A stretch of 64,000 nucleotides of DNA, taken from positions 1 to 64,000 of IMG/VR virus record IMGVR_UViG_3300011116_001125; one strand, given 5' to 3'. A program made the translations under genes and the position numbers. Positions 7,539 to 63,881 of this stretch are shown here, piece by piece. Within the stretch, counting starts at the first letter, position 1; every line of letters begins with the position of its first letter. The stretch comes from a virus. The notes under the pieces were generated by a model. It was not told where the DNA came from and made no database searches. It saw only the letters and a list, made by a program, of their open reading frames with translations.

Positions 7539-7828
7539 TGTTTACACAAGCACTCAATACGGGCACTTTTAAAGTAGATGTAATGACTTCTAGTAATGGA
7601 GGTCACCCGCCTGAGTTTTGGGCAAAACGTGCGGCAGACCATATTGTAAAAGTTGCCGAAACTGCCCATCCCGCTATTCGCGATCAGGCTTTGGCCTTTC
7701 GAGATCAGGTAGAACACGTTATACTTCATCACATGAAACAAGCTATTTCGTGTGATCGGACCACGGTGGGCTCATACGTAGAAGAGGCAGGCCATCCTAA
7801 ACTGGCTGAACTTATAAGGAGGCCGTAA
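7538..7828 (+). CDS. Conserved small phage protein, 96 aa
   Basis: Has a GGHPPEFWAKRAADHIVKVA segment and AHPAIRDQALAFRDQ helix seen in a widespread family of small phage proteins encoded beside tail genes. Function unknown. Both ends overlap neighbouring genes by one base, so it is translated within the tail gene block. Mostly helical and without membrane segments. Confidence 0.6.
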   Translation: MFTQALNTGTFKVDVMTSSNGGHPPEFWAKRAADHIVKVAETAHPAIRDQALAFRDQVEHVILHHMKQAISCDRTTVGSYVEEAGHPKLAELIRRP

Positions 7829-8318: not shown

Positions 8319-9287
8319 ATGGCTGATGCTATTGTCGCATTTCAAGGTTGGAATAGGTCACAAGGTTGGGGGCTCGGGCCTTTTGGCACGGGCTCCATTG
8401 ATATTGGCGTCGCAACAGGGGCTGTAGGAACTGTTAGCGTTCAGGGTGACGCTGTAGCTTCGGTAACAGGTGTATTTTCTACAGGCCAAGTTGGTACCGT
8501 AGACGTTTACTTAAACACATCTATTGACCTCACAGGTGTAGTGGCTACAGGTCAAGTTGGCGATATTACAGTTGTTGGTAACGCTATTGCGGATACCACA
8601 GGCGTTGCCGCTACAGGTCAAGTTGGCAGTGTTTCGATTGTTGTCGATGTAAATGTCGACGTTACGGGCATAGCTGCTATTGGTCAGGTTGGCACTGTAG
8701 ATATTTATCTATCGCCTAATGTTGCCGTAACAGGGGTAGAAGCTACAGGCCAAGTTGGCAATGTTACTGTTGCTCTTTCCGCTAATGTTTCTGTAACTGG
8801 ATTAGAAGCTACAGGCCAAGTTGGCGATGTTACTGTTAGTGGCAACGCAGTAGTTGATGTTGCGGGGTTATCTGCAACAGGTGAAGTTGGAACTGTAGAA
8901 GTTCAACTTTCGCCTAATGTAAGCGTTACTGGTGTATCTGCTACGGGTGAAATTGGCACCGTTTCGGTTGTGCTTGTTACAAATGTTTTTGTAACGGGTG
9001 TAGAAGCAACGGCTACGGTAGGCAGTGTTACTGTTTCACTTTCGCCTAACGCCTACGTTATAGGGGTAGAAGCCACTGGTTATGTAGGAACTGTCACCGT
9101 TTGGGGGCAAATTGTGCCGAGCCAAAACCCCGATTGGAATACCTTTGTTCCAGTAGATGTGCCCGCTTGGGCGGCTATGACCCCTGCAAATACACCAAAT
9201 TGGATACCGATTGCGCCTTCGGATGATCCAAGCTATACTCCGATCAACCCATCCCAAACGCCAAACTGGGAGCAGATAGCTGCGTAA
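8319..9287 (+). CDS. Repeat fibre protein with 22-residue TGQVGTV units
   Basis: 322 residues. Residues about 30-265 are some ten tandem copies of a 22-residue unit (form TGQVGTVxVxLSPNVxVTGVEA), in exact register. Residues about 270-320 are a second repeat of about 11 residues with the form P-N/D-W-x-x-I/F-x-P. Such regular short β-repeats fold as elongated fibres, so a tail or head fibre shaft is likely. The gene lies directly before the long tail-fibre gene. A single 16-residue unit of the same repeat recurs at the C-terminus of the protein encoded at 13556. Confidence 0.7.
   Translation: MADAIVAFQGWNRSQGWGLGPFGTGSIDIGVATGAVGTVSVQGDAVASVTGVFSTGQVGTVDVYLNTSIDLTGVVATGQVGDITVVGNAIADTTGVAATGQVGSVSIVVDVNVDVTGIAAIGQVGTVDIYLSPNVAVTGVEATGQVGNVTVALSANVSVTGLEATGQVGDVTVSGNAVVDVAGLSATGEVGTVEVQLSPNVSVTGVSATGEIGTVSVVLVTNVFVTGVEATATVGSVTVSLSPNAYVIGVEATGYVGTVTVWGQIVPSQNPDWNTFVPVDVPAWAAMTPANTPNWIPIAPSDDPSYTPINPSQTPNWEQIAA
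8400..9110 (+). repeat. In-frame tandem 66-bp repeats
   Basis: About ten degenerate copies of a 66-bp unit encode the 22-residue repeats. The most constant DNA part is ACAGGYCAAGTTGGC. The copies vary mainly by synonymous changes and at surface-type residues, so the array is old and kept at protein level. Confidence 0.75.
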
Positions 9288-11681: not shown

Positions 11682-13556
11682 ATGCCTTACCAAAAACTTC
11701 AGTTTAAGCCCGGATTTATTCGTGATCTTACCGCCTATACCAACAAAGGCGGTTGGTACGATGGCAATCTTGTTCGGTTTAGATTAGGTTTTCCTCAATC
11801 AATTGGTGGGTGGATTAAGTACACAACGGCACAGTTTCTTGGTACTTGCCGCGCAATTTTTCCTTGGAACACGCTTAGCGGCAAGTTTTTCAATGCTATA
11901 GGTACGAGTTTAAAATACTATGTAGAATACGGCGGGGCGTTCTATGATGTAACTCCACTACGTGATACAGTGGTATTAAATAACCCATTTACTGCGACAA
12001 ATGGTTCCTCTATTATCAATGTGTACGATGTTGCGCATGGTGCATTGGATAATGATTTTGTTACATTTAGTGGAGCAGCAAGTTTAGGTGGAAACATCAC
12101 TGCGGCAGTTCTTAATAAACAATTTCAAATCACTTATGTTGATGTCGATAACTACAAAATCACTGTTTCTGCTACTGCCAATAGTTCGGATACAGGTCAT
12201 GGTGGGGCAACCGTAACCACTGCATATCAAATCAACACGGGCATTAACTCCGCATTGGTCGGCGGTGGTTGGGGAGCAGGCACATGGGGGCGACTTACTT
12301 GGGGCAGTGCTATCCCCGTTACGGCTAATCTTTCTTTACGCCTATGGTTTCAAGATAACTTTGGTGAAATACTATTGTTTAATGTTTATAATGGTGGAAT
12401 TTATCTATGGAACCCTGCAAGCTCTTCTTTAACTACACCACCGTACACGTTTAATCGTGCAGTTACACTAGCTAGCCTTTCAACTGATGCAACTACGCCT
12501 ACGCTCGCTACGCAAGTCATGGTCTCTGATCGTGACAGGCACGTTATTGCTTTTGGTGCGAATATGGGTGGCTCTACTAGCCAAGATGCGTTGCTTATTC
12601 GGTTTAGCAACCAAGAAGATTATACAACATGGACTTCTACTGCCACGAACACGGCAGGTGACTTACGCCTTGGTACAGGTAGCCGCATTATCCGTGCGCT
12701 AGAAACAAAGCGTGAGATTTTAGTATGGACAGATTCAGCACTGTATTCAATGCAGTTTGTTGGACCACCCTATACGTTTGGTATTACCCAAATTTCTTCT
12801 GCCACTACCGTTATTAGCGCAAACGCTTTTGCAGCTATTGACGATACTGTGTATTGGATGGGTAACCAAAAATTTTACGTTTATGATGGTGCAGCTAAAG
12901 AACTTGTTTGCCCGATTAAAAACTATGTTTTCAACGGCATGAATGGCGCACAGGTTGAAAAAATAACAGTAGGTGTCAATTCTGAATTCAACGAAGTAAC
13001 GTGGTTTTATCCTTCAACCAACTCTTCTGATTGCGACCTATACGTTACTTATAATTATGCTGATCAAGCATGGACGTATGGTAGTTTGGCACGCACTGCA
13101 TGGGTAGACCGTGGGCAAGAAGGCTACCCGTTAGCTGCCGGAACAGACGGATATCTGTACTATCAAGAGTATGGTTCTAACGACGGTAGTACTAGCCCCG
13201 CTTCGCCATTAAATACGTATATTGAAAGTGCCCCGTTTGATATTGGCGAAGGCAATCAAATGTCTTTTGTCAAACAGCTTATTCCAGATGTTTCGTTTGT
13301 AGACTCCACAAACTCACCTAGCCTCAGCATGACGGTAAAGGTGCAAAACTATCCTGGAAGTAACTACAGCACTGCCCAAACAACTACTTCTGCTGTTACG
13401 CAAACGGCAACTGTTCCTATTGAACAGTATACTAACCAAGTTTCTTTGCGGCTACGGGGTAGGCAAGTCACATTTCGCGTTGAAAGCAATAAAACCGATA
13501 CAAGTTGGGTATTAGGTAGCCCTCGTTTGGACATACAACCTGATGGGCGTCGCTAA
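11682..13556 (+). CDS. Putative tail nozzle/hub protein
   Basis: 624 residues. Begins with YQKLQFKPGFIRDLTAYTNK and GGWYDGNLVRFRLGFPQSIG, a start shared by large podovirus tail proteins often annotated as P22 gp10-like or nozzle proteins. The remainder is β-rich with regularly spaced blades (for example SDRDRHVIAFGANMGGSTSQ and WTDSALYSMQFVGPPYTFG), as expected for a β-propeller nozzle. Between fibre and internal virion genes. The family is inferred by start, size and position. Confidence 0.6.
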   Translation: MPYQKLQFKPGFIRDLTAYTNKGGWYDGNLVRFRLGFPQSIGGWIKYTTAQFLGTCRAIFPWNTLSGKFFNAIGTSLKYYVEYGGAFYDVTPLRDTVVLNNPFTATNGSSIINVYDVAHGALDNDFVTFSGAASLGGNITAAVLNKQFQITYVDVDNYKITVSATANSSDTGHGGATVTTAYQINTGINSALVGGGWGAGTWGRLTWGSAIPVTANLSLRLWFQDNFGEILLFNVYNGGIYLWNPASSSLTTPPYTFNRAVTLASLSTDATTPTLATQVMVSDRDRHVIAFGANMGGSTSQDALLIRFSNQEDYTTWTSTATNTAGDLRLGTGSRIIRALETKREILVWTDSALYSMQFVGPPYTFGITQISSATTVISANAFAAIDDTVYWMGNQKFYVYDGAAKELVCPIKNYVFNGMNGAQVEKITVGVNSEFNEVTWFYPSTNSSDCDLYVTYNYADQAWTYGSLARTAWVDRGQEGYPLAAGTDGYLYYQEYGSNDGSTSPASPLNTYIESAPFDIGEGNQMSFVKQLIPDVSFVDSTNSPSLSMTVKVQNYPGSNYSTAQTTTSAVTQTATVPIEQYTNQVSLRLRGRQVTFRVESNKTDTSWVLGSPRLDIQPDGRR

Positions 13557-22123: not shown

Positions 22124-22635
22124 TGAAAGATAATTTTGAACAATGCTTGGCCTTGGTGCTTAAACACGAAGGCGGTTATGTTAATAACCCAAAAGATCCA
22201 GGAGGCATGACTAACCTCGGCGTTACCAAAAAAGTTTGGGAAGAATGGGTTGGTCATACGGTAGACGAAGCAGCAATGCGAGCGTTGGGGCCAACAGATG
22301 TCGCGCCGCTCTACAAGAAAAACTACTGGGACCGTGTCCGTGGAGATGATCTACCGACAGGTGTTGACTATTCTGTGTTTGATCTTGCTGTTAATAGTGG
22401 TGTTAGCCGTGCCGTCAAGTTTTTACAGGCCGCTTGTGGTGTTGCTCAAGATGGCGCTATCGGACCAGCGACATTAGCCGCAGTTGCACAACAACACCCA
22501 CGCGAACTTGCTACCGCTGTGTGTGAAAAACGGTTAGCATTTCTTCAATCATTGCCAACGTGGAATACATTTGGCAGGGGGTGGAACAAGCGTGTAGCCG
22601 AAGTAGAAGAAGCTGCTTTTAAGATGGTCGGCTAA
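22123..22635 (+). CDS. Endolysin, GH108-type muramidase
   Basis: 170 residues. The catalytic signature KHEGGYVNNPKDPGGMTNLG (Glu16) is that of glycoside hydrolase family 108, which cleaves peptidoglycan glycan strands. A C-terminal segment GAIGPATLAAVAQ with an ATAVCEKRLAFLQSL helix fits the peptidoglycan-binding domain 3 usual in the family; the length is typical. No signal peptide is evident, so release would depend on a holin, for which the gene at 54950 is the candidate. It converges with the leftward helicase gene, overlapping it by four bases. Confidence 0.9.
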   Translation: MKDNFEQCLALVLKHEGGYVNNPKDPGGMTNLGVTKKVWEEWVGHTVDEAAMRALGPTDVAPLYKKNYWDRVRGDDLPTGVDYSVFDLAVNSGVSRAVKFLQAACGVAQDGAIGPATLAAVAQQHPRELATAVCEKRLAFLQSLPTWNTFGRGWNKRVAEVEEAAFKMVG

Positions 22636-24071
22636 ACAATCCACTGTTTGTAATCTTCGTTCAGCACTTGCGTAGCAAGGTTAATCTTGTTGCGCAGTGC
22701 CTTTAATATTTTTTCTTCTACGGTATTTTCCGTAATGATATCTACGTAGGTAACGTTGTTTTTCTGCCCAATGCGGTGCGCACGGTCTTCGCTTTGCAAC
22801 CTTATTTCAAGGTCGTAGTTGTTACTGTAGTAGATCACAGTTTTGGCTAGTGTCAACGTTAATCCGTAGCCGCCCGTACGGGGTTGCCCAACAAAAAACC
22901 TCAGTGGATGGGCAACGTTTTGAAAGTTTTTCACTGTTTGTTGGCGCTGCTCTACATCAGTATCACCGTAGTACAGGGCCACTGAATCATTACCGTATTC
23001 TTCTTTGAGCATCTTTTCAATTTCCAACAGATCATTGGTAAATGTAGCCCATATGATTACCTTACCATCGACTTCTTCTAACGTAGCTTTTAGCTCGTTC
23101 AGTTTATTGGTTGGAAACCGTTTTGTGGTGCCATCATCCATACGCACAAAACCGCTACACACTTGTTGGAGCCGCAGTATTTGGGTGAGCACATTAGGGG
23201 CCGTTGCCAACTGACCTTCTAGCTCAGCCAAAGCTAGATTTTTCATTTGGGCATATATACGGGCCTGCTCATCGGTAAACTCTACCGTGCGGCGGGTATA
23301 AATTTTATCAGGTAAATCTAAACAATCTTCTTTACGCACACGGTAGCTAAACTCTTCAATCTTTTTGCTTAGCTCATCAAGGTTCTGATAGCCTACAATT
23401 TGATTAAAACTATGCGTGCCAAGCGAACGTTTAACCATACGGGCGTATCTGCTTTGGAAAGCCCAATAGCTGTTATAGCCCAAGGCCCATGGATCAAGAA
23501 ACTCGCACTGGCTGTACAGGTCCAACGGGCTTTGCGTAACGGGCGACCCTGTAGCAATACGCCGATAGATTGCCTTGGTGCCTAGTTTCACAAGGCTTTT
23601 GGTTCGTTTGGCAGTGCGGTTTTTGATTGTTGTGCTTTCATCTACTGCCATAAGCACTTTTTTCAATTTAAGAAACGTTTCTGCAAAAGTGCAACCTTTT
23701 TCGGTACTAAATGCTTCTACGTTCATAACTACCAATTTAAGTGATTCGTCGCGCTCGAACGCTCGCTCAAGATCTTTCTTTTTCTTTTGAGTTTGCTCAG
23801 GCGACCATGTAATGATTTGCGCATCAATATGCGTGGGCAAATGCTCAGGTAATTCTTTTTGCTCCCAATTTTTATACACGCCTTTGGGAGCTACAATCAA
23901 AGCGCCTTCAATACGACCTTCATCGTAGAGCATGGCTATTGTATCAATAATGATCTTACTTTTGCCTGTTCCCATTTCTAAAAACAGGGCGTATTCGGGG
24001 CGTTCCCAACTACGTTCAAGTGCCGTTAATTGATGCGCATACGGCTGATGCTTAAATTTGTAACGTAACAT
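22632..24071 (-). CDS. SNF2-family DEAD/H-box helicase
   Basis: 479 residues on the minus strand. Motif I is EMGTGKSK (about residue 32), motif II VDEST in place of DEAH, motif III ATGSPVTQSPLDLY, and motif VI QSEDRAHRIGQ near residue 430, all SNF2-type. Compact, without accessory domains, as in phage SNF2 helicases thought to act in replication or recombination. The only leftward gene of the unit. A good promoter (TTGTCC, 17 bp, TAATAT) and an AAGAAAGGG ribosome site precede it. The DEST variant of motif II should still bind magnesium through Asp-Glu. Confidence 0.9.
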   Translation of the reverse strand: MLRYKFKHQPYAHQLTALERSWERPEYALFLEMGTGKSKIIIDTIAMLYDEGRIEGALIVAPKGVYKNWEQKELPEHLPTHIDAQIITWSPEQTQKKKKDLERAFERDESLKLVVMNVEAFSTEKGCTFAETFLKLKKVLMAVDESTTIKNRTAKRTKSLVKLGTKAIYRRIATGSPVTQSPLDLYSQCEFLDPWALGYNSYWAFQSRYARMVKRSLGTHSFNQIVGYQNLDELSKKIEEFSYRVRKEDCLDLPDKIYTRRTVEFTDEQARIYAQMKNLALAELEGQLATAPNVLTQILRLQQVCSGFVRMDDGTTKRFPTNKLNELKATLEEVDGKVIIWATFTNDLLEIEKMLKEEYGNDSVALYYGDTDVEQRQQTVKNFQNVAHPLRFFVGQPRTGGYGLTLTLAKTVIYYSNNYDLEIRLQSEDRAHRIGQKNNVTYVDIITENTVEEKILKALRNKINLATQVLNEDYKQWIV

Positions 24072-24101: not shown

Positions 24102-24130
24102 ATATTACCACTGTTCAACCCCATGGACAA
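24102..24130 (-). promoter_or_regulatory. Promoter for the leftward helicase
   Basis: Read on the minus strand: TTGTCC, 17 bp, TAATAT, followed about 20 bp later by an AAGAAAGGG ribosome site and the helicase ATG. It belongs to the TTGTC-N17 promoter set that recurs in the small-gene region. Confidence 0.6.
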
Positions 24131-24181
24131 CTTTACTATTAGGCGGGTTTTTCCAAGGCTATGCTACACAAACAACCTCGC

Positions 24182-24207
24182 ACGCGTGCGCGGGGGGCGA
24201 AAAAGTG
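24182..24207 (+). repeat. 26-bp GC-rich element, left copy
   Basis: Sequence pattern: ACGCG(T)GCGC, six G, CGAAAAAGTG. It matches 25 of 26 positions with the reverse complement of 45751-45776. These are the only two copies I found. They lie at either end of the early region and face each other. Confidence 0.75.
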
Positions 24208-24277
24208 GTCAGATAGCGATATAGTCAGATATTGTATAGTGGCGCAAAAATAAATTTGTTGTGTTCCATTTTAAAAT

Positions 24278-24306
24278 TTGGACCTATTAAGCAAAGTGCT
24301 TGCTAT
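24278..24306 (+). promoter_or_regulatory. Candidate rightward early promoter
   Basis: TTGGAC and TGCTAT are separated by 17 bp, 45 bp before the first early start codon. The -10 hexamer is poor. Included because the early operon needs a start here and no better match is visible. Confidence 0.35.
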
Positions 24307-24350
24307 CCTAGTTTCTATGGCCCATAGTAGTTGGGCATGGGGAGAAAGCC

Positions 24351-24662
24351 GTGACCGTTTACATCACTCAAGAAGTTCGTGGGCGGGATCTTACCGATGC
24401 TTTGGGCTTTGGTGACCTAGACATACTTGTTCCTGCCAAGGAGCAAATTGCCTTATCATCAGGACCACTGGTTAAGCGTATGGAGCGAAAGTTATCCAAG
24501 TTCACAGATAATGATTTCCTTATGCTTGCAGGTGACCCCGTTTGTATTGGGGTTGCGTGCGCACTTGCGGCAGTCAGTAACAATGGTCGTTTTAAGGTAC
24601 TTAAATGGGACCGTTTGGAGCAAAGGTATTACCCGATAAATGTCAACCTGTATCAAAAGTAG
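24351..24662 (+). CDS. Early conserved hypothetical protein, 103 aa
   Basis: First gene of the rightward early operon. A GTG start at 24351 follows GGGAGAAAGCC. It reads MTVYITQEVRGRDLTDALGF with a later FTDNDFLMLAGDPVCIGVAC segment; small proteins of this pattern head early operons in several phages, with unknown function. A mixed α/β protein without Cys clusters or membrane helices. Confidence 0.6.
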   Translation: MTVYITQEVRGRDLTDALGFGDLDILVPAKEQIALSSGPLVKRMERKLSKFTDNDFLMLAGDPVCIGVACALAAVSNNGRFKVLKWDRLEQRYYPINVNLYQK

Positions 24663-24670: not shown

Positions 24671-25219
24671 ATGTTAGATTTTGAACAAACGGCTGACGAA
24701 CTTAGCAAGCTAGGCGATGATGCTATAGGCCGCATTGCTAAACTGGTTAAGATGCAACTTGCCTTGGAAGCAAGGCTAGCTCAACTAGAAGAAGAGCAAA
24801 AAGATGTTGCACGTCAGTTACGTGAAATAGCTGAAGAAGAGCTGCCTTCCGCAATGGAAGAGCATGGCGTAAGCCAATTAAAAATGGGTGACGGTAGTGA
24901 AATCACTGTAAGCACGTTTTACAGTGCCTCAATACCAAAGGATGAAACTGAGCGTGCGTTCGATTGGTTGCGCGATAATAGGTTTGGTGACCTCATTAAA
25001 AATGTTGTTTCCACAACCTTTGGGCGCAACGACGATGCTAAGGCTAAAGCACTTGTCAATACGCTGTCTGACAGTGGTTATAGCGTAAATCAGAAGCAGT
25101 GGGTTGAACCAATGACCCTCAAGGCTTTTGTTAAGGAACAAGTTGAAAAGGGGGCACCGCTTCCTATGGATTTGTTTGGTGTATATATTGGTAAAAAAGC
25201 CAAAGTAAGGAGAAAGTAA
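24671..25219 (+). CDS. Coiled-coil early protein, 182 aa
   Basis: Residues about 20-62 form a Glu/Arg/Leu-rich coiled coil (LALEARLAQLEEEQKDVARQ), followed by an α/β region with KMGDGSEITVSTFYSASIPK. Domain order resembles Gp157-type phage proteins but I cannot claim that family. The AGGAGG ribosome site is strong, and the stop overlaps the start of the SSB-like gene, so a role with replication proteins is likely. Confidence 0.55.
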   Translation: MLDFEQTADELSKLGDDAIGRIAKLVKMQLALEARLAQLEEEQKDVARQLREIAEEELPSAMEEHGVSQLKMGDGSEITVSTFYSASIPKDETERAFDWLRDNRFGDLIKNVVSTTFGRNDDAKAKALVNTLSDSGYSVNQKQWVEPMTLKAFVKEQVEKGAPLPMDLFGVYIGKKAKVRRK

Positions 25220-29485: not shown

Positions 29486-30517
29486 ATGGCGCACCTTATT
29501 GAAACTATGGCTTATGCAGGCGAAGTTCCTTGGCATGGGCTTGGCACTCAGGTTGATAGCAACATGTCACCTGAACAAATGCTTGTAGCCGCAGGCTTGG
29601 ATTGGACGGTTAGCAAACGTCCTGCCTATTTTGCCGCTGAAAAGTTTGTACCTAATTTGTACGCACCCGAGCTTAACAGCAACATGATGCTTGTTGAGGA
29701 TAACTTCTTTGTAGTGCGCGATACCGATAACAAGGTACTCAGCCATGCAGGTACAGGGTACAACCCTTTCCAAAACCGCGATGTAATGTCGTTCTTTAAA
29801 AAGTTCACCGAAGCAGGTGATATGTTTATGGAAACGGCAGGTAGCCTAAAGGAAGGCCAAGAAATTTGGGGCCTTGCCAAGTTAAAAGACGGCTTCCAGC
29901 TTGCGGGTGGTGATGAGGTAAAAGGTTACCTTTTGCTCAACAATAGCCACAAGGTCGGCAAAGCTATGACTGTTATGTTCACGCCTATTCGTGTGGTATG
30001 TAACAATACGCTCACCTTGGCCCTTAACGATGCGGGGGCTAACAAGTTCCGCATTTTGCACCTGCAAATGTTTGATCAAGAAATTATGCAGGCCGCAGAG
30101 GAGGCCCTTGGCCTGAGTAGCACCCGCATGGCGCAGTTCAAAGAGCAGTCTGAGTTCCTTGCTTCCAAACGTGCCAAAACACTGGATGTTGATAACTTCA
30201 TAGCCGAAATGTTCCAAAAGGATACGTTATTGGAACGTGGCAAAGCCGCCAACCAGAACGAGTTGCCACCGTTACGCGACGAGTTCAAACGTACCGCATT
30301 GGCAGTAGCCGAGGCTTACGAAGTAAGTCCAGGAAGCACCCTTGCTTCTGCCAAGGGCACATGGTGGGGCGCACTCAATGCCGTCACCTACGTGGTTGAC
30401 CACCCGCGCCGCGCAAGCAGTGAAGGCGGTAGCCTCTACAGCGCATGGTTCGGCAACGGTGCCAACGTCAAGCGCCGCGCTATGGAAAAGGCTTTGGAGT
30501 ACGCGCAAGCCGCGTAA
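29486..30517 (+). CDS. DUF932 / TIGR03299 phage-plasmid protein
   Basis: 343 residues. The N-terminus MAYAGEVPWHGLGTQVDSNM, then PFQNRDVMSFFKKF and GYLLLNNSH..., VVCNNTLTLAL, is the pattern of the DUF932/TIGR03299 family found in phages and plasmids. The biochemical function is unknown; the family often lies among replication genes, as here. Length is usual. Start behind ATAGGAGAAAG. Confidence 0.85.
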   Translation: MAHLIETMAYAGEVPWHGLGTQVDSNMSPEQMLVAAGLDWTVSKRPAYFAAEKFVPNLYAPELNSNMMLVEDNFFVVRDTDNKVLSHAGTGYNPFQNRDVMSFFKKFTEAGDMFMETAGSLKEGQEIWGLAKLKDGFQLAGGDEVKGYLLLNNSHKVGKAMTVMFTPIRVVCNNTLTLALNDAGANKFRILHLQMFDQEIMQAAEEALGLSSTRMAQFKEQSEFLASKRAKTLDVDNFIAEMFQKDTLLERGKAANQNELPPLRDEFKRTALAVAEAYEVSPGSTLASAKGTWWGALNAVTYVVDHPRRASSEGGSLYSAWFGNGANVKRRAMEKALEYAQAA

Positions 30518-30534
30518 TCTAACACTTGCAATGG

Positions 30535-30560
30535 TGGAGTCAGTGGTTAAACTGGCTCCA
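30535..30560 (+). promoter_or_regulatory. Intergenic hairpin after DUF932 gene
   Basis: A 10-bp stem with one wobble pair (TGGAGTCAGT / ACTGGCTCCA) and a 6-nt loop. No T-run, so possibly an RNA processing or stability element. Confidence 0.45.
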
Positions 30561-30591
30561 CTACCCACCTTGCCATAGAAAGGCGCAAGAT

Positions 30592-31164
30592 ATGTATTAC
30601 GTGATTGCTGAAGGCCCCCCTGCTTCACAGGGCAAGCCTTATCACATTTTAAAGTTCAAAACGCTACGTGACATGAAAGAGTGCCCTTTGATCGACAAAG
30701 GCACCATTGTGTATAGCGAAGTTACCCAATTAGACGAGTTTTGTACAAAGGCCGAGTTGGAAGCCATTTGGCACACTCTTAACCTGAGTTCAAAGGCACC
30801 GCAGAACAAGCGCATTACCGCAGGGCTTCTGCATGAGTATGTTGTGGAAAACGCAACGGTTTGGAAACAAGGAGACACCAAAATGACTGAAGTTAAAGTT
30901 TCGGCACCTGCCGCTAAAACTGCTCCGAAAGAGAAAAAGGAAAGTGCCCGCACACGTATCCCCAAGGAAGCAAAAATCGTAGTGCTTAAGCAGTTTGAAG
31001 GTCGCGCCGGAACCACGCGTGCCGAAGCCTTAAAAATTGCTCTTGCCGCACCAACGGTTGAAAAGGCCCTTGCCGATATGCGTGCCGCAGGATTTACAGC
31101 GGCAGTTGCCTCATCGACCATTAAGTTCGCCATTGCCGAAAAACTTATAACGGTAAAGATCTAA
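30592..31164 (+). CDS. Two-part hypothetical protein, 190 aa
   Basis: Start at 30592 behind AGAAAGG. Residues 1-100 are α/β (MYYVIAEGPPASQGKPYHIL); then a Lys/Ala-rich linker (about 105-125); residues 125-190 form a basic helical domain (RIPKEAKIVVLKQFEGRAGT) with a winged-helix-like pattern that could bind DNA. An ATG at 30883 with a good AAGGAGA could give the C-terminal part alone. Function unknown. Confidence 0.5.
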   Translation: MYYVIAEGPPASQGKPYHILKFKTLRDMKECPLIDKGTIVYSEVTQLDEFCTKAELEAIWHTLNLSSKAPQNKRITAGLLHEYVVENATVWKQGDTKMTEVKVSAPAAKTAPKEKKESARTRIPKEAKIVVLKQFEGRAGTTRAEALKIALAAPTVEKALADMRAAGFTAAVASSTIKFAIAEKLITVKI

Positions 31165-31165
31165 C

Positions 31166-32020
31166 ATGAACGGCGAAGGGCAGTTCTTTTATTGGATAAA
31201 TGAGCGCCATTCTATCTATTTGTCTAAGGCGGCGGGTAATCCAAAACCTTGGACAAGTGATAGTATTTTCCAACAGTACAAGTTTACGAACCCTTTTAGG
31301 GAGCTAGACAAAACAACTGTATGGATGCGCGAACATTTGACCAATCCCAACAAAAATGCCCCCATAGCCGAAACCCTGTTCAACTGTTGCGTGTTCCGCA
31401 TGTTTGGCACGATGGAAATGGGCGAGGCTTTGGGTTGGATAAAGCAGTGGGATCCTGAATATGTGAAAAGTCTTGCCCGTGGTCGGTTGAGCATGGGGCT
31501 TAAAGTATTCACAGGGGCATACATTATCACTAACCAAGGGTTGAAAAACCCAAAGGAAGAGGTAGTATGCGATATGTTTCTGACCCCCGTATGGAAAGCC
31601 CGTGATCAGTTAGCCGAGTGCATTGAGCAAACAAATAGTTTGGAAGCACTGCACAAGGAACTTGGCAAGTTTGCAGGATGGGGCGGCGGGGGCTTTATGG
31701 CCTACGAAGTAGTAACCGATCTTAACCATACTAGCGCCATGCCAGAGCCAGTTGATAGGTTTACGTGGGCCAATGCAGGTCCAGGAGCAAAGCGGGGTCT
31801 TAACCGTTTGCATGGTCGCCCCTTGGATAAAGCCAATGGCGTAGACTGGAATAGCGAAATGCAACAGCTATTGGAGCTCGCCCCAAAATACTGTGACCCC
31901 GAAGTATTAGCTCAAGTTGTAGATATGCGCACGATAGAGCATAGCCTGTGCGAATGGGATAAGTACCAACGGGTACTACTCGGCCAAGGTAAACCACGAA
32001 GCCTGTACAAAGGAATTTAG
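31166..32020 (+). CDS. HMUDK_hel / aGPT-PPlase-like DNA base modification protein
   Basis: 284 residues. The start GEGQFFYWINERHSIYLSKA, GNPKPWTSDSIFQQYKFTNP, FRELDKTTVWMREHL is the pattern of the helical domain shared by 5-hydroxymethyldeoxyuridine DNA kinases and the α-glutamyl/putrescinyl-thymine pyrophosphorylase group (PF18723). These act on hydroxymethyl-uracil in phage DNA, activating it for further substitution. No separate P-loop domain is fused here, so this protein would be the helical/pyrophosphorylase type only. It begins a tight run of five genes with a radical SAM enzyme, a glycosyltransferase-like protein and a thymidylate synthase homologue, which strongly supports a role in DNA hypermodification. 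Function itself is inferred. Confidence 0.7.
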   Translation: MNGEGQFFYWINERHSIYLSKAAGNPKPWTSDSIFQQYKFTNPFRELDKTTVWMREHLTNPNKNAPIAETLFNCCVFRMFGTMEMGEALGWIKQWDPEYVKSLARGRLSMGLKVFTGAYIITNQGLKNPKEEVVCDMFLTPVWKARDQLAECIEQTNSLEALHKELGKFAGWGGGGFMAYEVVTDLNHTSAMPEPVDRFTWANAGPGAKRGLNRLHGRPLDKANGVDWNSEMQQLLELAPKYCDPEVLAQVVDMRTIEHSLCEWDKYQRVLLGQGKPRSLYKGI

Positions 32021-32021
32021 T

Positions 32022-33020
32022 ATGTCATACGTACAAGACCCACCCTACTGCATCCAAGTAGAATTAACTGAAGGATGCAACTTGGGTTGTAGCTTCTGCG
32101 GGTTGCAACACATTCGTGATAACGGTGCCAATGGCCCCGAAGATAAACACGGTAAAGCCTCCTTTATGAAGTTTTTAACCGTGGAAAATGCGGAGGTTAT
32201 TGCAAGCCGTATAGCCGAAGCTAAATGGACCCCCCGTATTGAGTTTGCCATGCACGGCGAGCCAACCATGAACCCTAATTACATTGAAATTGTAGGGGTG
32301 TTCCGTAAGAATTTACCGAAAGCCAGTTTGCAGTTGACCAGTAATGGCGGCGGGCTACTCAAAGGCCAAGGGTTCAGTAGCAATATCAACGCGCTTATGG
32401 AAGCGGGCCTGAACATACTTAGTTTAGATAACTACGATGGCATACGTATCGTTGATAAAATTTTGCAAGGATACAATGGGCCACATCGCGTATGGAAATA
32501 CCCGCAAGAAATTATGGGCAACCCTCATCGCCGCCGCAAGCCGCATGAACACGATATTGTAGTTATTCAAGATATTGAAGCCGCTACCAAAGGCAATCAC
32601 AGTATACTCAGCAACCACACAGGCGGGAGCTTTCCGCTTAATGATAAAATGGCAGGGAAGCGTTGTGCAAAGCCCTTCCGTGAACTTAGCGTGCGTTGGG
32701 ATGGCAACGTAGCGATGTGCTGTAACGACTGGCCCGGACGCTACAAAATCGGCAACTTGTTAGAAACAGCAATAAGTGAGCTTTGGCTAGGTGAAGCCTT
32801 CCAAGCCGCTAGACAAGCCTTGTATCATGGACAACGGACATTCACACCTTGTAAAGGTTGTGACCATGTAAGTTACCGTCCAGGATTGTTGCCTGATGCC
32901 AAGGGTAAAGAAACATTACCAAAGCCTGATGCGCAAACGTGGGCAGTAATAGAAAAATACACAAGTGGTGAGCCTTACACTCCAAAAGTAAAAAGGCCGT
33001 GGGATGGAGTAATTAAGTGA
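32022..33020 (+). CDS. Radical SAM enzyme with SPASM-type C-terminus
   Basis: 332 residues. The radical SAM iron-sulphur motif is Cys19-x3-Cys23-x2-Cys26 (EGCNLGCSFCGLQH), followed by an HGEPTMNP motif (the GGE-type SAM-binding loop). The C-terminus has further Cys (215, 233, 234, 277, 280; KRCAKPF, AMCCNDW, CKGCD) as in SPASM/twitch domains with auxiliary clusters. It starts two bases after the preceding gene and overlaps the next by four. Radical SAM enzymes are known in predicted phage thymine hypermodification systems; the substrate here (a modified base in DNA or its nucleotide) is inference. Queuosine-type QueE is unlikely, given the SPASM region and lack of other queuosine genes. Confidence 0.85.
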   Translation: MSYVQDPPYCIQVELTEGCNLGCSFCGLQHIRDNGANGPEDKHGKASFMKFLTVENAEVIASRIAEAKWTPRIEFAMHGEPTMNPNYIEIVGVFRKNLPKASLQLTSNGGGLLKGQGFSSNINALMEAGLNILSLDNYDGIRIVDKILQGYNGPHRVWKYPQEIMGNPHRRRKPHEHDIVVIQDIEAATKGNHSILSNHTGGSFPLNDKMAGKRCAKPFRELSVRWDGNVAMCCNDWPGRYKIGNLLETAISELWLGEAFQAARQALYHGQRTFTPCKGCDHVSYRPGLLPDAKGKETLPKPDAQTWAVIEKYTSGEPYTPKVKRPWDGVIK

Positions 33021-33979
33021 ACGTCGATCTATTTTATCTTAGCCCTAACCCGTATGGTGGATGGGTTACCTTCACCGCGCATTTGGTTGAGGCTTTGAAA
33101 ACGGTTGGTATCAAACCAAACTTGTATCGTATTAGGCCGCGCAGTGAAAAGAAACCACGGCCCTTTGGTTACGATCTGCATTACACAAACATCAGTTTGC
33201 AAGATGCTTTGCGTAGCCCGAACAAGAAGTTGATTGTAGCCGCCGCTAAAAACTTTGCGGAGGAAACTTCGGCGCTGTACTCAGCGGGTGCCGCGCTTGT
33301 AGTGCATGATCCTACCGAAATCAAAAACCTACCACCGTTAGATGGCAAGATCATTGTTATTCGGCAGATTGGTTTAACGTATCTGCCAAAAGCCGTGTTC
33401 ATACGGCACCCGTATCAACGTAGGCCCGAGTATGAAATATTCAACCGTACAACACGGGCTATCAGCACTTCGCGTATTGACTTTGACAAGCATACCGCGC
33501 TGATACTTGATGCAAATAGGTTAGTGCCCGATGAAGTTAAGTGCAGGATATATGGTTTTGAAAACCGCATCTACACACGATTTAAGATAGTACCTCATTA
33601 CCCTGAATGGGAACAAAGCAAAGCGGCTTATCCCCGCAGTAAAGAAGCCGCGTTTAAGTTGCTTTCTTACGCGCAACTTGCCGTGGATATGAGCCTTATT
33701 AAAGGTGATGGCGGTGGTACTCAATACACAACACTGGAAGCATGGGATGCAGGTGCAGTTCCGGTTATCCAACGTGCGTGGCTAATGCCCAAAGATGATA
33801 TGGTTGAAAACCAAAACTGTTTTGCAGTAGGTAACGCCGATGAGTTAGCCGCATTGTTATCAGACGTAGGGAATACTTCATACTTGGATAACTACCGCGA
33901 GTATGGATATAAGCAGTTGGCGCTCCACCATCCCAAGGTTATTGGTGAACGCTATAAAGCCGTTTTAGAAGCTATTTGA
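33017..33979 (+). CDS. GT-B type glycosyltransferase-like protein
   Basis: 320 residues with a two-lobed GT-B layout: NPYGGWVTFTAHLVEAL at the start (glycine loop of GT4 enzymes), and in the C-terminal lobe GGGTQYTTLEAWDAGAVPVI and ENQNCFAVGNADELAALLSD, the nucleotide-sugar-binding side. It overlaps the radical SAM gene and is followed by the thymidylate synthase-family gene after 17 bp. Could glycosylate a hydroxymethylated or otherwise activated base in phage DNA. Start codon GTG at 33017. Confidence 0.7.
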   Translation: MNVDLFYLSPNPYGGWVTFTAHLVEALKTVGIKPNLYRIRPRSEKKPRPFGYDLHYTNISLQDALRSPNKKLIVAAAKNFAEETSALYSAGAALVVHDPTEIKNLPPLDGKIIVIRQIGLTYLPKAVFIRHPYQRRPEYEIFNRTTRAISTSRIDFDKHTALILDANRLVPDEVKCRIYGFENRIYTRFKIVPHYPEWEQSKAAYPRSKEAAFKLLSYAQLAVDMSLIKGDGGGTQYTTLEAWDAGAVPVIQRAWLMPKDDMVENQNCFAVGNADELAALLSDVGNTSYLDNYREYGYKQLALHHPKVIGERYKAVLEAI

Positions 33980-33996
33980 TAATAGTAGGGCATACC

Positions 33997-34986
33997 ATGT
34001 ACACAATAAAGGTTAGAAACGTTTCTGAGGCCCTCTACGTTGGTCTAGGTGCTATCAAAAGTACGGGGGCTAAAATACAAAGCCGCGCAGGTGAAACCCT
34101 TGAAATGCCTGCTCCTGTATGCACAACGTACAGTCACCCTATGGAGCGTGTGTTGTTCTACCCGCAACGTGACGCTAACCCGTTTTTCCACTGCTTAGAA
34201 GCACTGTGGATGTTGGCAGGGCGCAACGATGTGGAGTTCCTTAAGCGTTACAACAAACGCATGGAAACATATAGCGATGGCAATGATATATTGCACGGAG
34301 CTTATGGGCACAGATGGCGTAATTGGTTTGGCATTGACCAGTTGGATATCGCTGTAAAACGGTTGAAAAAATACCCCAACGATAGACGCACCGTCGTGCA
34401 AATGTGGGATAGTGAAAATGATTTGTATGAAGGTAACCAGTTAAAAGATATCCCTTGTAACACGCAAATATACTTTAAGGTGCGTGAAGGGCGTTTGAAC
34501 ATGATGGTTACATGCCGTAGTAATGATATGATATGGGGCGCGTATGGCGCAAACGCAGTTCACTTTTCAATGTTACAAGAATACGTTGCCGCTAGAGTAG
34601 GTGTGCCCGTAGGGACGTATCACCAAGTGAGCGATAGCTTCCATGCTTATACGGACGTGCTTACTAAGTTGGATAACTTGGTTGCCGATTATGACCCCTA
34701 CTATGAGTTCGATTACTTGGTGCAACCTTTGGTAACGGATGCTGCCAAGTTTGATGAAGAACTTCGTAGGTTTTTTGATTCATCGCCACTTACACGTGTC
34801 TACCGCAATATGTTTCTTGGCAATGTAGCCGACCGTATGCGTGCGGCCCATGCACTATGGCGCAGTGGCGATATGGACGAAGCCCTGAGTATGGCGGGTG
34901 CTATCACTGCGCCGGATTGGCGTAAGGCTTGTGTAGAATGGTTGGAACGCAGGAGAAAGAGCGATGAGCAAGACATTAGAAAATAA
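33997..34986 (+). CDS. Thymidylate synthase-family protein, hydroxymethylase candidate
   Basis: 329 residues. Family motifs: HGAYGHRWRNW, DRRTVVQMWD, IPCNTQIYF with the catalytic Cys154, CRSNDMIWGAYGANAVHFSM and YHQVSDSFHAY. Three features depart from classical ThyA: Asn instead of His after the catalytic Cys, a one-residue longer nucleotide loop (GAYGAN), and a different C-terminus without the conserved ThyA end. This subgroup occurs in phages with modified bases as dUMP or dCMP hydroxymethylase. The loop Asn favours dUMP, hence 5-hydroxymethyl-dUMP as product. Start at 33997. Its cluster position supports hydroxymethylase; plain thymidylate synthesis remains possible. Confidence 0.75.
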   Translation: MYTIKVRNVSEALYVGLGAIKSTGAKIQSRAGETLEMPAPVCTTYSHPMERVLFYPQRDANPFFHCLEALWMLAGRNDVEFLKRYNKRMETYSDGNDILHGAYGHRWRNWFGIDQLDIAVKRLKKYPNDRRTVVQMWDSENDLYEGNQLKDIPCNTQIYFKVREGRLNMMVTCRSNDMIWGAYGANAVHFSMLQEYVAARVGVPVGTYHQVSDSFHAYTDVLTKLDNLVADYDPYYEFDYLVQPLVTDAAKFDEELRRFFDSSPLTRVYRNMFLGNVADRMRAAHALWRSGDMDEALSMAGAITAPDWRKACVEWLERRRKSDEQDIRK

Positions 34987-35278
34987 TTTGGCTGAGTTAG
35001 CAAAAGCCGATGTAGAAGGTTTAATGCGTGCGCAAATCAGCTATGGCAATAGTTGGAAGCGTAGAGGTGGCGTTGGTGCGTTTATGATGTTAGCCCGTAA
35101 GTGGGACCGCATAAGCAATCAATGCAAGAAGGTTGGTTGGGATGTATTCAAAGCCATAGAAAATGACCCAAGTGATACAGGTATTTTAGATGACATACGT
35201 GACCTACGCAGATACCTTTTGTTAGTACACGAGGAAATGCAACGTAATGGATATAAAGATCCCGGATCACTTGATTGA
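34964..35278 (+). CDS. Nmad1/DUF1599-like nucleotide-modification-associated protein
   Basis: 104 residues, all helical. ISYGNSWKRRGGVGAFMMLA, RKWDRISNQ and DDIRDLRRYLLL follow the pattern of nucleotide modification associated domain 1 (DUF1599), which is repeatedly found beside thymidylate-synthase homologues and hypermodification genes in phages. Enzymatic activity is not established; a MazG-like nucleotide-handling role has been suggested for the fold class. Overlaps the preceding gene by 23 bases. Confidence 0.65.
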   Translation: MSKTLENNLAELAKADVEGLMRAQISYGNSWKRRGGVGAFMMLARKWDRISNQCKKVGWDVFKAIENDPSDTGILDDIRDLRRYLLLVHEEMQRNGYKDPGSLD

Positions 35279-35462
35279 GGCCGTGTGTGAGTGTGGCAAA
35301 GAAAAGCGCACGCTCACCATGCGTAAACTAAAGAACAAATGGCCCTTTTGTCAGTGCCGTCAAGCAATGAAAGTTTATGATGAGCAACCTATGGATGAAC
35401 AAGGAGTGGGTGATGCCAGAGGCATTGCCGAGCTTCTCCGACGCGGCAGAAATATCCATTGA
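35247..35462 (+). CDS. Small zinc-finger-like protein overlapping PolA start
   Basis: 71 residues with CECGKEKRTL and FCQCRQ, a CxC...CxC pair that could bind zinc. It overlaps the upstream gene by 32 and the PolA gene by 50 bases, which is unusual, but a GAGGA ribosome site precedes the ATG at 35247. Function unknown. Confidence 0.45.
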   Translation: MDIKIPDHLIEAVCECGKEKRTLTMRKLKNKWPFCQCRQAMKVYDEQPMDEQGVGDARGIAELLRRGRNIH

Positions 35463-37314
35463 CCTTGAAACATACGACCCCCGCCTAACTACACATGGCA
35501 GTGGATGGGCACGTAAGGAAGGTGAAATTATTGGCGTTGCCGTAGCTGTTGATGGCGAGGCTATGTATGTTCCTGTGCGCCATAAAAACGGGCAGAATAT
35601 TGATTGGCGACGTGTGCATTATTGGTTGAAAACAATATGCGGAAACCCTAACCGTGATTATGTATTTCACAACGCCATGTACGACGTTGGTTGGTTATGG
35701 TCCGAGGGTATTGAAATCAAAGGCCGCATTGTTGATACAATGGTTGCCGCGCCGTTAATCGATGAGAACCGTTATAGTTACTCGCTCAATGCGCTTAGTA
35801 AAGACTACTTAGGCGAAACTAAAAATGAATACCTGCTAAAAGAAGCCGCCGCTCAATTTGGCGTGAACCCAAAAGCAGGGATGCACTATCTACCCGCACA
35901 GTTCGTTGGGCCTTATGCTGAGCAAGACGCTGCCCTTACACTGAAACTATGGCAACACTTCAAAAACATTATCATTCGCGATGAGTTGCAGGATATTTTT
36001 GACCTTGAGTTGCGCGTTCTACGTGTGTGTATTGAAATGCGTAAGAAAGGTGTGCGCGTAGATGTTGAGCGTGCCGAGCAAATAAAGCGCGATTTAGAAA
36101 AGCGTGAGCAAGCTATATTAGGTGGTTTGAAAAAGGAATATGGCGTAGCGGTCGATATCTGGGCGGCGGCGAGTATTGCCAAAGCGTTTGATGCCGTAGG
36201 CTTGGAATATGAGCGCACGGAAAAAACCAATGCGCCGAGCTTTACCAAAAACTTTCTTGCTAACCATCAACACGCACTGCCCCGAGCAGTTGTGCAAGCG
36301 CGTGAGCTCAACAAAGCACGCACTACGTTTATTGATACGATATTAGGCCATCAGCATAATGGGCGTATCCATGCTGAAATGCACCAGTTGCGCAGTGATG
36401 ATGGCGGTACGGTTACAGGGCGATTCAGCTACAGCAACCCGAACTTGCAACAAATTCCCGCACGTAACCAAGAAATCGGGCCACTGATACGTGGCTTGTT
36501 TTTACCCGAAGAAGGTGAGTTGTGGGGCGCGTTTGACTACAGTAGCCAAGAACCACGCATCGTTGTTCATTATGCTTCGTTGCTTGATTTCACAGGTGCC
36601 GCAGACTTTGTTGAACAGTACGCAAAAGATGCACGCACGGACTTCCACCAACTTGCGGCGGATATTGTTGGTGTGCCCCGCAAGAAAGCCAAAGACATCA
36701 ATTTGGGTTTGTTCTATGGCATGGGGCAGAAAAAGCTAGCCGACCAGTTAGGCTTGGAGCTTGAAGATGCCAAGGAACTGTTTACCTTGTATCACAACAA
36801 AGTGCCTTTCGTGCGGCAGTTAAGTGATTACGCAATGAACCGTGCGAATAGCAGAGGGATTATTCGTACTTTATTAGGTAGGCGTTGCCGCTTTGATATG
36901 TGGGAACCTATGAAGTACGGTTTGCACAAGCCCTTGCGTCACGCAGAAGCGTACGCGGAACATGGCCCACAGATTAAACGTGCGTTCACTTACAAAGCAC
37001 TTAATCGATTAATCCAAGGCAGTGCTGCAGACCAAACGAAGTTGGCTATGGTAACAGCGTACGAAGCTGGATACTTGCCACTGATACAAGTGCATGATGA
37101 GTTGGATTTTAGTGTGGCAAGTGAACTTGATGCAAAGCGCATCGCCGAAATAATGGAAAGCTGTGTGGGCCTTGCTGTACCGAGCGTAGTGGATGCGGAG
37201 TTCGGTCTAACATGGGGCGAAGCAAAGCAAACATTTACCGATAAACCTTGGACCCGTGGTTTGAAGCATAACCACTCAACAATGGAAACAAACAATGATC
37301 ACACAGCTGAATAG
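35413..37314 (+). CDS. polA: DNA polymerase, family A
   Basis: 633 residues. 3'-5' exonuclease domain at the N-terminus (IDLET, Asp17/Glu19; later AEQDAALTLKL), then the polymerase domain: GRFSYSNPNLQQIPARNQ, motif A DYSSQEPR (Asp375), motif B KDINLGLFYGMG (Lys427), motif C VHDELDF (His561, Asp562). No 5'-3' exonuclease domain. The residue matching E. coli Pol I Phe762 is Leu431. The ATG at 35413 behind AAGGAGTGGGTG is preferred over two upstream in-frame ATGs inside the previous gene. Replicative polymerase of this phage. Confidence 0.95.
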   Translation: MPEALPSFSDAAEISIDLETYDPRLTTHGSGWARKEGEIIGVAVAVDGEAMYVPVRHKNGQNIDWRRVHYWLKTICGNPNRDYVFHNAMYDVGWLWSEGIEIKGRIVDTMVAAPLIDENRYSYSLNALSKDYLGETKNEYLLKEAAAQFGVNPKAGMHYLPAQFVGPYAEQDAALTLKLWQHFKNIIIRDELQDIFDLELRVLRVCIEMRKKGVRVDVERAEQIKRDLEKREQAILGGLKKEYGVAVDIWAAASIAKAFDAVGLEYERTEKTNAPSFTKNFLANHQHALPRAVVQARELNKARTTFIDTILGHQHNGRIHAEMHQLRSDDGGTVTGRFSYSNPNLQQIPARNQEIGPLIRGLFLPEEGELWGAFDYSSQEPRIVVHYASLLDFTGAADFVEQYAKDARTDFHQLAADIVGVPRKKAKDINLGLFYGMGQKKLADQLGLELEDAKELFTLYHNKVPFVRQLSDYAMNRANSRGIIRTLLGRRCRFDMWEPMKYGLHKPLRHAEAYAEHGPQIKRAFTYKALNRLIQGSAADQTKLAMVTAYEAGYLPLIQVHDELDFSVASELDAKRIAEIMESCVGLAVPSVVDAEFGLTWGEAKQTFTDKPWTRGLKHNHSTMETNNDHTAE

Positions 37315-37819
37315 AATTTGGCATTTACGCAGGGCAGGATACATTAAGCGTTATCATACAGTGCCTACAGTTGGGGATAGTCAAACCGTGAGTGCGCATT
37401 CTTGGGGCGTTGCAACACTAATCAATGAAATATGGCCCGATGCCAGTAAGCAAGTATTACTCGCTAGTTTGTATCACGATGTTGCCGAAGTGTTGATAGG
37501 TGATACCCCTGCAACAGTGAAGTGGAAGTACGCCGATTTTGCCGCCGCAATCGAAAAAGTAGAAAAAGAAGCGGAAGAAGAATTAGAACTGGAATTTGCG
37601 CTATCCCTGAGAGAGAAGCGCCAGTTGAAAATTGCCGATTTGTTAGAGCTGATGCTTTACGCAGGCGAACAAATAAAGATAGGAAACATGCACTTTAAAG
37701 AAGTACTGAATAACGGAAAAGAATACTTGCAAGTGAAATATGGAAATACCCCTGAGTTTAACGAAGCCTTCCCCATGTTCAACTATGCGCTAACAAGGCT
37801 TAGTCATTCTACCATGTAG
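37295..37819 (+). CDS. YfbR-like HD-domain 5'-nucleotidase
   Basis: 174 residues. HD-domain residues His35 (VSAHSWGV), His61-Asp62 (LYHDVAEVLIGD), Glu65 and Asp70 followed by TPATVKW match the deoxynucleotide 5'-nucleotidase YfbR group. Such enzymes dephosphorylate dNMPs; in a phage this could steer nucleotide pools, possibly away from an unmodified base. It overlaps the PolA end by 20 bases. Confidence 0.85.
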   Translation: MITQLNRIWHLRRAGYIKRYHTVPTVGDSQTVSAHSWGVATLINEIWPDASKQVLLASLYHDVAEVLIGDTPATVKWKYADFAAAIEKVEKEAEEELELEFALSLREKRQLKIADLLELMLYAGEQIKIGNMHFKEVLNNGKEYLQVKYGNTPEFNEAFPMFNYALTRLSHSTM

Positions 37820-37829
37820 GTGTTATAAT
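37801..37829 (+). promoter_or_regulatory. Promoter of small-gene region
   Basis: TAGTCA, 17 bp, perfect TATAAT, overlapping the end of the nucleotidase gene; AGAAAGGA ribosome site and GTG start follow at 37857. Confidence 0.6.
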
Positions 37830-37856
37830 TAAAGTGTTCATAGAAAGGAACAACAC

Positions 37857-38318
37857 GTGAACATATTCGCCTTACACACTGATCCTGTAATTGCGGCGCA
37901 ATGGCATTGCGATAAGCACGTTGTCAAAATGCCGTTAGAAACTGCTCAGATGCTTTGCACGGTGCATCACCATTACGGCTTTGATGCGCCCTATAAGCCT
38001 GCTCATGCTAACCATCCTTGTACTGTGTGGGCGGGCCAAACGATTGAAAATTACAAGTGGCTCTGGCGCTTAGGCATTGCCCTATGCGAGGAGTATACCC
38101 ACCGATACAACAAAACTCATGCCTGCGAGCAAGTGTTAGCGATAGTGCGTTGCGCTCCACCTACACTCACGGCACGGGGTTACACAAAATTCGCGCAGGC
38201 CATGCCTGACGAATACAAGCACCACGATACACAAATAGCTTATCAACAATATTATCGCGGTGCAAAATACCAGTTGGCTGTGTACACGAAACGTGAACCA
38301 CCGCCGTTCATGCAATAG
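37857..38318 (+). CDS. Conserved phage protein with CDKHVVKM signature, 153 aa
   Basis: GTG start behind AGAAAGGA. Starts MNIFALHTDPVIAAQWHCDK followed by HVVKMPLETAQMLCTVHHHY; many His, Trp and Tyr residues. I recall the same pattern (hCDKHVVKM-x-LE-x-AQ-x-L, and later KWLWRLGIALCEEYTHRY) in many T4-like and aquatic phages as a conserved protein of unknown function. The His/Cys content suggests a metal or nucleotide site. Confidence 0.65.
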   Translation: MNIFALHTDPVIAAQWHCDKHVVKMPLETAQMLCTVHHHYGFDAPYKPAHANHPCTVWAGQTIENYKWLWRLGIALCEEYTHRYNKTHACEQVLAIVRCAPPTLTARGYTKFAQAMPDEYKHHDTQIAYQQYYRGAKYQLAVYTKREPPPFMQ

Positions 38319-45354: not shown

Positions 45355-45537
45355 ATGGTTACCTATCATCGCGAAGCCGACGGTGTGTATACGGTCACCA
45401 AACACGGGGCCGTCTACGCTTGGGTGAACTACAGCCGACCACGGAAGCAATGGCGGCTTGTGACGGTTAAGGGGCGGCTGACCTTTTACCTTTCGCTAAC
45501 AGGGGCAATTCAGGCCGTTGAAAGGGCCGATGTATAG
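45355..45537 (+). CDS. Small basic β-protein, 60 aa
   Basis: MVTYHREADGVYTVTKHGAV with further β-strands and a C-terminal helix. Last gene of the early/accessory region. Function unknown. Confidence 0.5.
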   Translation: MVTYHREADGVYTVTKHGAVYAWVNYSRPRKQWRLVTVKGRLTFYLSLTGAIQAVERADV

Positions 45538-45750
45538 TTTTCCTTATAGGGTCTTAATGATATTAGAGTAAGTTATTGAAAAACAATAAGATAAAATTAT
45601 AGGGATGGCAAAGGACGTTTTTTGGTTTGTGTTTTATCGTCCATTTTCCAGTATCTGAGTATCTTTGTTTAGTTTCAATGGGTTAGTCCAGTATCTATAT
45701 CATATCTCATTTATCAGGTTTCATTGTCTGTTATTTAGTCAGTTTTAGTT

Positions 45751-45776
45751 CACTTTTTCGCCCCCCGCGCGCGCGT
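45751..45776 (-). repeat. 26-bp GC-rich element, right copy (inverted)
   Basis: The reverse complement matches 24182-24207 at 25 of 26 positions. It points left, towards the other copy, so that the two enclose the early region of about 21.5 kb. Confidence 0.75.
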
Positions 45777-45844
45777 ACCCCTCTTCTTCAAAATTTTTTT
45801 CATAACCCCTACCCCCCCCCTATTAAGAAAAGTCCGAAGCAGGG

Positions 45845-45873
45845 TTGTCTTTGGTCGGCGGGAGCGCCATTGT
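45845..45873 (+). promoter_or_regulatory. Candidate promoter before terminase genes
   Basis: TTGTCT, 17 bp, CATTGT, 25 bp upstream of the small-terminase ATG. It shares the -35 of the other TTGTC promoters. Confidence 0.45.
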
Positions 45874-45898
45874 AGGCGCACATCGTCGGAGAAAGCGG

Positions 45899-58152: not shown

Positions 58153-58167
58153 GGGGAGCATTGAACA

Positions 58168-59076: not shown

Positions 59077-59103
59077 TTACTGCTTTCGCAACGGCAGTAA
59101 AGG

Positions 59104-59132
59104 AAGAGCGGGCCTTGTGTCCGCTCTTTTTC
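59104..59132 (+). terminator. Terminator after capsid gene (copy B)
   Basis: The same 8-bp stem, loop and T-run as at 1112-1140, unchanged, although the bases just before it differ. Confidence 0.8.
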
Positions 59133-59193
59133 TATTGTAACGTGCATTGTTCCTGACTGCTAAGGCAGACAACCCCAACGACAGGAGACTCAC

Positions 59194-59676: not shown

Positions 59677-59692
59677 TACCTAGGAGGCTAAT

Positions 59693-60091: not shown

Positions 60092-60102
60092 AAGAGACGA
60101 TA

Positions 60103-61450: not shown

Positions 61451-61617
61451 AAGTACGCGCTAAAAATTCCTTGCCTGTGCCACGCGGATCAAAAATGCGT
61501 ACGTCTCCTTTTGGCATGAAAAAAGGTGGCGCTTTGGGTAAAACCAAGAAACCTAAAGTTGGTATAGCAATTATGATTGCTGTCGGTAAGCCTAGAAAAG
61601 GAATGCGTAATGGCTAA
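61447..61617 (+). CDS. Small basic protein, 56 aa (copy B)
   Basis: Counterpart of 3451-3621: MKVRAKNSLPVPRGSKMRTS, with the same overlaps to both neighbours. Conservation of length and frame supports coding. Confidence 0.65.
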   Translation: MKVRAKNSLPVPRGSKMRTSPFGMKKGGALGKTKKPKVGIAIMIAVGKPRKGMRNG

Positions 61618-62378: not shown

Positions 62379-62379
62379 A

Positions 62380-63880: not shown

Positions 63881-63881
63881 C

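Follow-up and report, generated by a model that had tools for sequence, protein, structure and literature searches.

A GC-rich element paired in two intergenic control regions of an environmental phage: candidate replication-origin or control sites

Two gene-free regions and the element they share

The stretch of DNA analyzed here (the window) comprises bases 1-64000 of a virus record of 75,636 bases (IMG/VR record IMGVR_UViG_3300011116_001125). The genome unit has ~57,991 bases; from position 57,992 the record repeats its start, at 91% and then mostly at 75-84%, and it amounts to ~1.3 genome lengths. Since the overrun (57992-64000 of the window, continuing in the record to 75636) is mostly only 75-91% alike to the first ~16 kb, two related strains are joined in the record, either by chimeric assembly or as a mixed concatemer. 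The terminase of the phage resembles that of HTVC027P-type pelagiphages, and its helicase-early gene block is also like that of Pam3 and Mesyanzhinovviridae. Direct repeats are present within the late region at 8524-9101 (inside ORF 8319-9287) and at 62718-63090.

Two intergenic regions are considered (Table 1): the divergent region between the helicase and the early genes (left), and the region upstream of terS, the gene for the terminase small subunit (right). Each contains one copy of a 26-bp GC-rich element, called E. The two copies, 21.5 kb apart and inverted, differ at a single position of the 26; the coordinates, orientation and 25/26 agreement given in the original prediction were all confirmed on the sequence, as were the gene-free flanks of both copies.

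Table 1. Features of the two control regions and genes mentioned in the text (window coordinates)
Feature	Position	Strand	Remark
SNF2/HepA-type helicase gene	22632-24071	-	left neighbour of left region
P-like motif CCTAATAGTAAAGT	24130-24143	-	one base short; faces helicase gene; counterparts in G001, G002, G014, G016
Left E, ACGCGTGCGCGGGGGGCGAAAAAGTG	24182-24207	+	conserved in G011, G023
AT-rich iteron-like stretch, GTCAGATAGCGATATAGTCAGATATTGTATAGTGGC	24208-24243	+	beside left E; similar stretches in G002, G012, G018, G020
Least stable 100-bp window of left region	24218-24317		candidate DNA-unwinding element; lowest 0.2% of genome
Motif P, CCTATTAAGCAAAGT	24283-24297	+	53 bp before first early + gene
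First early + gene (Pam3 gp32-like, phrog_5888)	24351-24662	+	right neighbour of left region
HMUDK helical domain	31166-32020
Thymidylate-synthase-like enzyme	33976-34986
YfbR-like 5'-deoxynucleotidase	37295-37819
Least stable 100-bp window of whole 58-kb unit	45529-45628		right region; candidate DNA-unwinding element
P-like motif CCCTATAAGGAAAA	45538-45551	-	outward-facing, inverted to right P; clear counterparts in G014, G016
Imperfect dyad, right region	45559-45695		arms 45559-45581 / 45673-45695; TAAGTTATTGAA / TAACCCATTGAA iterons
Right E	45751-45776	-	25/26 identical to left; conserved in G011
Motif P, CCTATTAAGAAAAGT	45819-45833	+	~65 bp before likely terS ATG
terS	45845-46534	+	right neighbour of right region; probable start ATG 45899

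The sequence GGGGGGCGAAAAAGTG has exactly two matches with up to two mismatches, where 0.04 are expected from shuffles. The 25/26 agreement is that of the best 26-mer between both intergenic regions, whereas 100 dinucleotide shuffles of the left region gave no more than 19/26. In a ranking of all distant repeats in the 58-kb unit the E pair comes third; in the near-identical relative G011 it comes first. Rfam and tRNA searches made while following up E gave no match and no tRNA, respectively.

E lies at the core of a control region that is larger than the 26-mer and occurs twice. The flanks of the two copies had been described as unrelated, and direct identity does end at the 26-mer; still, AT-rich words of the AGATA type and a second motif, P, are common to both sides. 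The AGATA-type words, also part of the original prediction, are indeed found beside both copies, and taken alone they are weakly enriched in the window; clear iterons are seen in the distant phages CN1 and LKO4. Motif P (consensus CCTATTAAG(C/A)AAAGT) is on the plus strand in both control regions. In records that have the left E, the two regions account for 21 of 24 matches to P, which often form outward-facing pairs; where the left E is missing, there are almost no matches. P is likely to be a phage promoter or to belong to one complex with E.

Duplex stability was computed per 100-bp window. The genome-minimum window lies in the right region in 7 of the 12 records, the one analyzed here among them, and none of the 12 right regions falls outside the lowest 0.4%. 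Left regions of records with the left E fall in the lowest 0.4%, with the exception of G014 (1.5%); in records lacking it the left-region percentile is 0.6-14%. The right-region dyad of the window is weak and is the positional counterpart of strong dyads in several relatives (G003, G005, G008 and G015 among them, as well as G004 and G012), with arms of 44-73 bases that lie around or near the GC-rich core and are far above shuffles. Sequences of the arms vary between phages and their self-complementarity is maintained. In the terS-upstream region of G004 (12526-12785, oriented) the inverted arms are 66 nt long and consist of TCACAGGGTT repeats, which sets them apart from those of other relatives. 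GC and third-position skews have no sign switch at either site; GC/AT skew was rejected as an origin signature, being ambiguous once gene strand is considered.

Conservation and co-variation among related phages

Under the original prediction, the element would be refuted by its absence from close relatives whose intergenic regions are otherwise conserved. The closest relatives do carry it: the core pair of 16 bases is retained in G011 (helicase 98% identical), with one mismatch in the left core, and the fragment G023 has the left copy. A 20-base query against the viral collection gave one further contig only, so the exact sequence of E is restricted to close relatives. A match with four mismatches in contig L025, located downstream of terS, was within chance expectation and was rejected.

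In more diverged relatives the corresponding intergenic regions have matching pairs with letters of their own. The left and right copies of G018, inverted, are identical at 24 of 24 positions (AAAATGTCGCGCGGCCAGTCAAAG) and differ in letters from those of the window. G013 and G014 have a pair in direct orientation (TCCGATAT...CTGTCCGCGCG), G016 has its own matching pair (TCCGATATA) and G012 one found by eye (CAACGGAACTT); weaker matches are present in G001 and G002. Read together, the copies suggest a layout that would consist of CGCGCG, a phage-variable block of 5-6 bases, (C/G)AAAGT and AT-rich words of the AGATAT type.

To quantify the pairing we compared whole intergenic regions of the E-positive genomes, every left with every right; the pairing of each left region with the right region of its own genome was the best of 5040 permutations. 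This comparison replaced one of hand-picked 31-mers (p = 0.0006), because the choice of 31-mers was not independent. The same permutation test in genomes lacking the left E gave p = 0.017, and part of the pairing signal may thus come from genome-specific composition. A match within genomes combined with turnover between them is what would be expected of two sites for one fast-changing DNA-binding protein.

The left copy is flipped in one subgroup, G013, G014 and G016 (3 of 12 scored loci), and the right copy is uniformly oriented among records read by eye. The inverted arrangement, in which the copies had been described as pointing to each other, is therefore incidental; some pairs in other phage groups are direct as well (see below). 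The left E is absent from a nested clade and from HTVC027P-type phages, so that two sites are not obligatory. In records without it (G003, G005, G008, G015 and others) the GC-rich core upstream of terS is mostly still there.

We also searched distant phages that have the helicase-early block, few in number and chosen by relatedness, using self-BLAST or local alignment. Direct pairs were found in LKO4 (501-651/35584-35733, 69%), CN1 (495-631/34946-35082, 80%) and Pam3 (upstream of the helicase gene and upstream of terS, 86%), and inverted pairs in PaMx11 (350-715/28241-28605, 74%) and JeffCo (upstream of the primase gene and at the end of the record, ahead of the terminase genes). The CN1 pair consists of AGGTAAGTAAGTTAAGTAAGTTAAG followed by AT-rich DNA: iterons plus a likely unwinding element. 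Kokobel2 and PSA28 match more loosely: a repeat ahead of their primase operon is paired with gaps several kb before the terminase region. Paired repeats were sought and not found in HTVC027P, DSL-LC04, ct3Et533 and the partial 023Pt_psg01 record. Apart from iteron words common to LKO4 and CN1, no sequence likeness was noticed between pairs of different groups; the homology is thus mainly one of position, not of sequence.

Candidate binding proteins and other readings of the pair

Of the E-positive records, only G011, G012 and G001 have recognizable relatives of the HTH protein encoded at 38330, originally suggested for a gel shift; it is therefore not the obvious common binder. The gene at 30526-31164 is found only in E-positive records and evolves fast; it was tried as a binder and rejected, as Pfam and PDB searches gave nothing and the AlphaFold model (mean pLDDT 70, pTM 0.41) had no credible fold match. 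Only G004 (7630-7824) and G012 (24913-25083, below the curated cut-off) encode proteins in which DnaA domain IV was recognized; these are candidate initiators for their lineages. A small protein encoded at 34964-35278, between thymidylate synthase and PolA, is 50% identical over part of its length to a Pam3 protein, and the neighbouring Pam3 product, Pam3_55, is annotated as DnaA. Part of the small protein matches designed coiled coils in the PDB, which makes the DnaA label look doubtful.

Genes resembling those of thymine hypermodification occupy 29486-38318 (Table 1); this cassette also includes DUF932 and a pyrimidine-dimer glycosylase-like protein. The whole cassette is absent from the nested clade that also lacks the left E, and across the whole clade of this phage left E and cassette co-occur perfectly. 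We rejected this link as causal evidence, since presence or absence of the left E takes only about two evolutionary changes on the trees and a pair is present in JeffCo, where the cassette is missing.

Among functional roles, E could be a transcriptional operator or enhancer. A phage regulator bound at both places would then co-ordinate transcription from the P promoters, of helicase and replication genes early and of terminase and structural genes late. Both sites lie between outward-facing P motifs, one at the head of the early transcription unit and the other at that of the late one, so their position suits a transcriptional role equally well; the left region yielded no sigma70-like promoter. 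However, the order and distance of E and P are unlike at the two sites and the orientation of E flips in relatives; in the window the leftward P-like motif of the right site has no leftward gene ahead of it; and long dyads together with the genome-minimum duplex stability exceed what an operator needs. We regard a purely transcriptional role, the main rival of the origin reading, as possible but rather unlikely; replication and transcription control could also be combined at the E sites.

A packaging role, with right E as a cos or pac site and left E as a decoy or second cut site, is improbable. The cos site of phage lambda lies upstream of terS; right E has the same location, immediately upstream of terS, with a GC-rich core and repeats nearby, and the GC-rich cores and dyads resemble sites of the cosN type. 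In contrast to a lambda-type cos, E is duplicated 21.5 kb away and is traversed by contigs: the 75,636-base record, which exceeds one genome length, crosses both sites, as do G011 and other contigs, which disfavours fixed-cut packaging. Several relatives self-close with near-identical ends of 114-138 bases at differing places, hence no fixed genome end is indicated and a cos site is unlikely. Related Mesyanzhinovviridae are described as circularly permuted headful packagers (PMC11946847). A pac site restricted to the right region would be compatible with this packaging evidence.

An inverted recombination site, such as one for inverting the 21.5-kb early segment, is a very improbable reading of E: the window pair is inverted with a near-identical core, but pairs are direct in G013/G014 and in LKO4, CN1 and Pam3, so orientation is not conserved, and relatives have a constant gene order with no inverted early segment. 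Chance or low-complexity likeness of GC-rich promoter DNA, which the simple runs in the core (CGCG, GGGGGG, AAAAA) might suggest, can be dismissed given the shuffles described above, and is refuted by relatives that retain altered yet still matching pairs. Thus, of the functions originally listed for E, recombination and fixed-cut packaging are not favoured, and an origin or regulator binding site is well supported by the conservation of the pair, the co-evolution of its copies and their position.

Candidate replication-control sites and comparison with known systems

The balance of probability lies modestly with E marking paired replication-origin or control sites that would be bound by a co-evolving phage protein and work like oriL and oriR of phage SPP1. 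Each control region has three components: a GC-rich core, easily melted AT-rich DNA in which iteron-like words occur, and P motifs that resemble promoters and face outward. The left copy lies where the early (replication) genes have their divergent promoter region, and the right copy directly upstream of the terminase and late genes. The AT-rich melting DNA, the dyads and the iterons of CN1 and LKO4 point to replication initiation. One sequence-specific phage protein would bind both sites as origins or initiator-binding sites. One site would start theta replication; the other might serve as a second origin, a fork block or a late-phase start, ahead of concatemer packaging.

More tentatively, and on balance less probably, a two-site co-evolving replicator may be an unrecognized general feature of several tailed-phage lineages, with copies at the head of the replication operon and at the early/late boundary, the partner usually lying directly upstream of the terminase genes. 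Initiator/site pairs would then be lineage specific, with fast sequence turnover and the pairing kept. We found no reports of such paired sites in the open-access papers searched, which is weak evidence of novelty. Origins are unmapped in most environmental phages; the strongest distant non-coding repeat that both heads a replication operon and precedes the terminase genes would nominate origin or control sites from sequence alone. The SPP1 idea of two origins and a theta-to-concatemer switch becomes testable in the culturable phages LKO4, PaMx11 and Bordetella CN1.

Iteron plasmid origins (e.g. those of RK2 and P1) have repeats adjoining AT-rich melting DNA. They are single and located beside their own rep gene, whereas here there are two sites and no rep gene was recognized. 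SPP1 has two origins, with direct repeats and AT-rich DNA, ~13 kb apart (PMC6316719), for which a switch from theta to concatemer replication has been proposed (PMC6316719, PMC3485210). Like oriL and oriR, which are bound by G38P, the two sites described here lie apart in the genome, have repeated sequence in common and contain AT-rich DNA; one belongs to the replication gene region and the other to a non-coding gap elsewhere, an arrangement that fits headful concatemer packaging (PMC6316719, PMC3485210). The systems differ in that SPP1 oriL is inside the initiator gene 38, whereas both E sites are intergenic and neither is inside an initiator gene; the replication genes are different (AEP-type primase and PolA here), the sequences are unrelated and the right E site adjoins terS.
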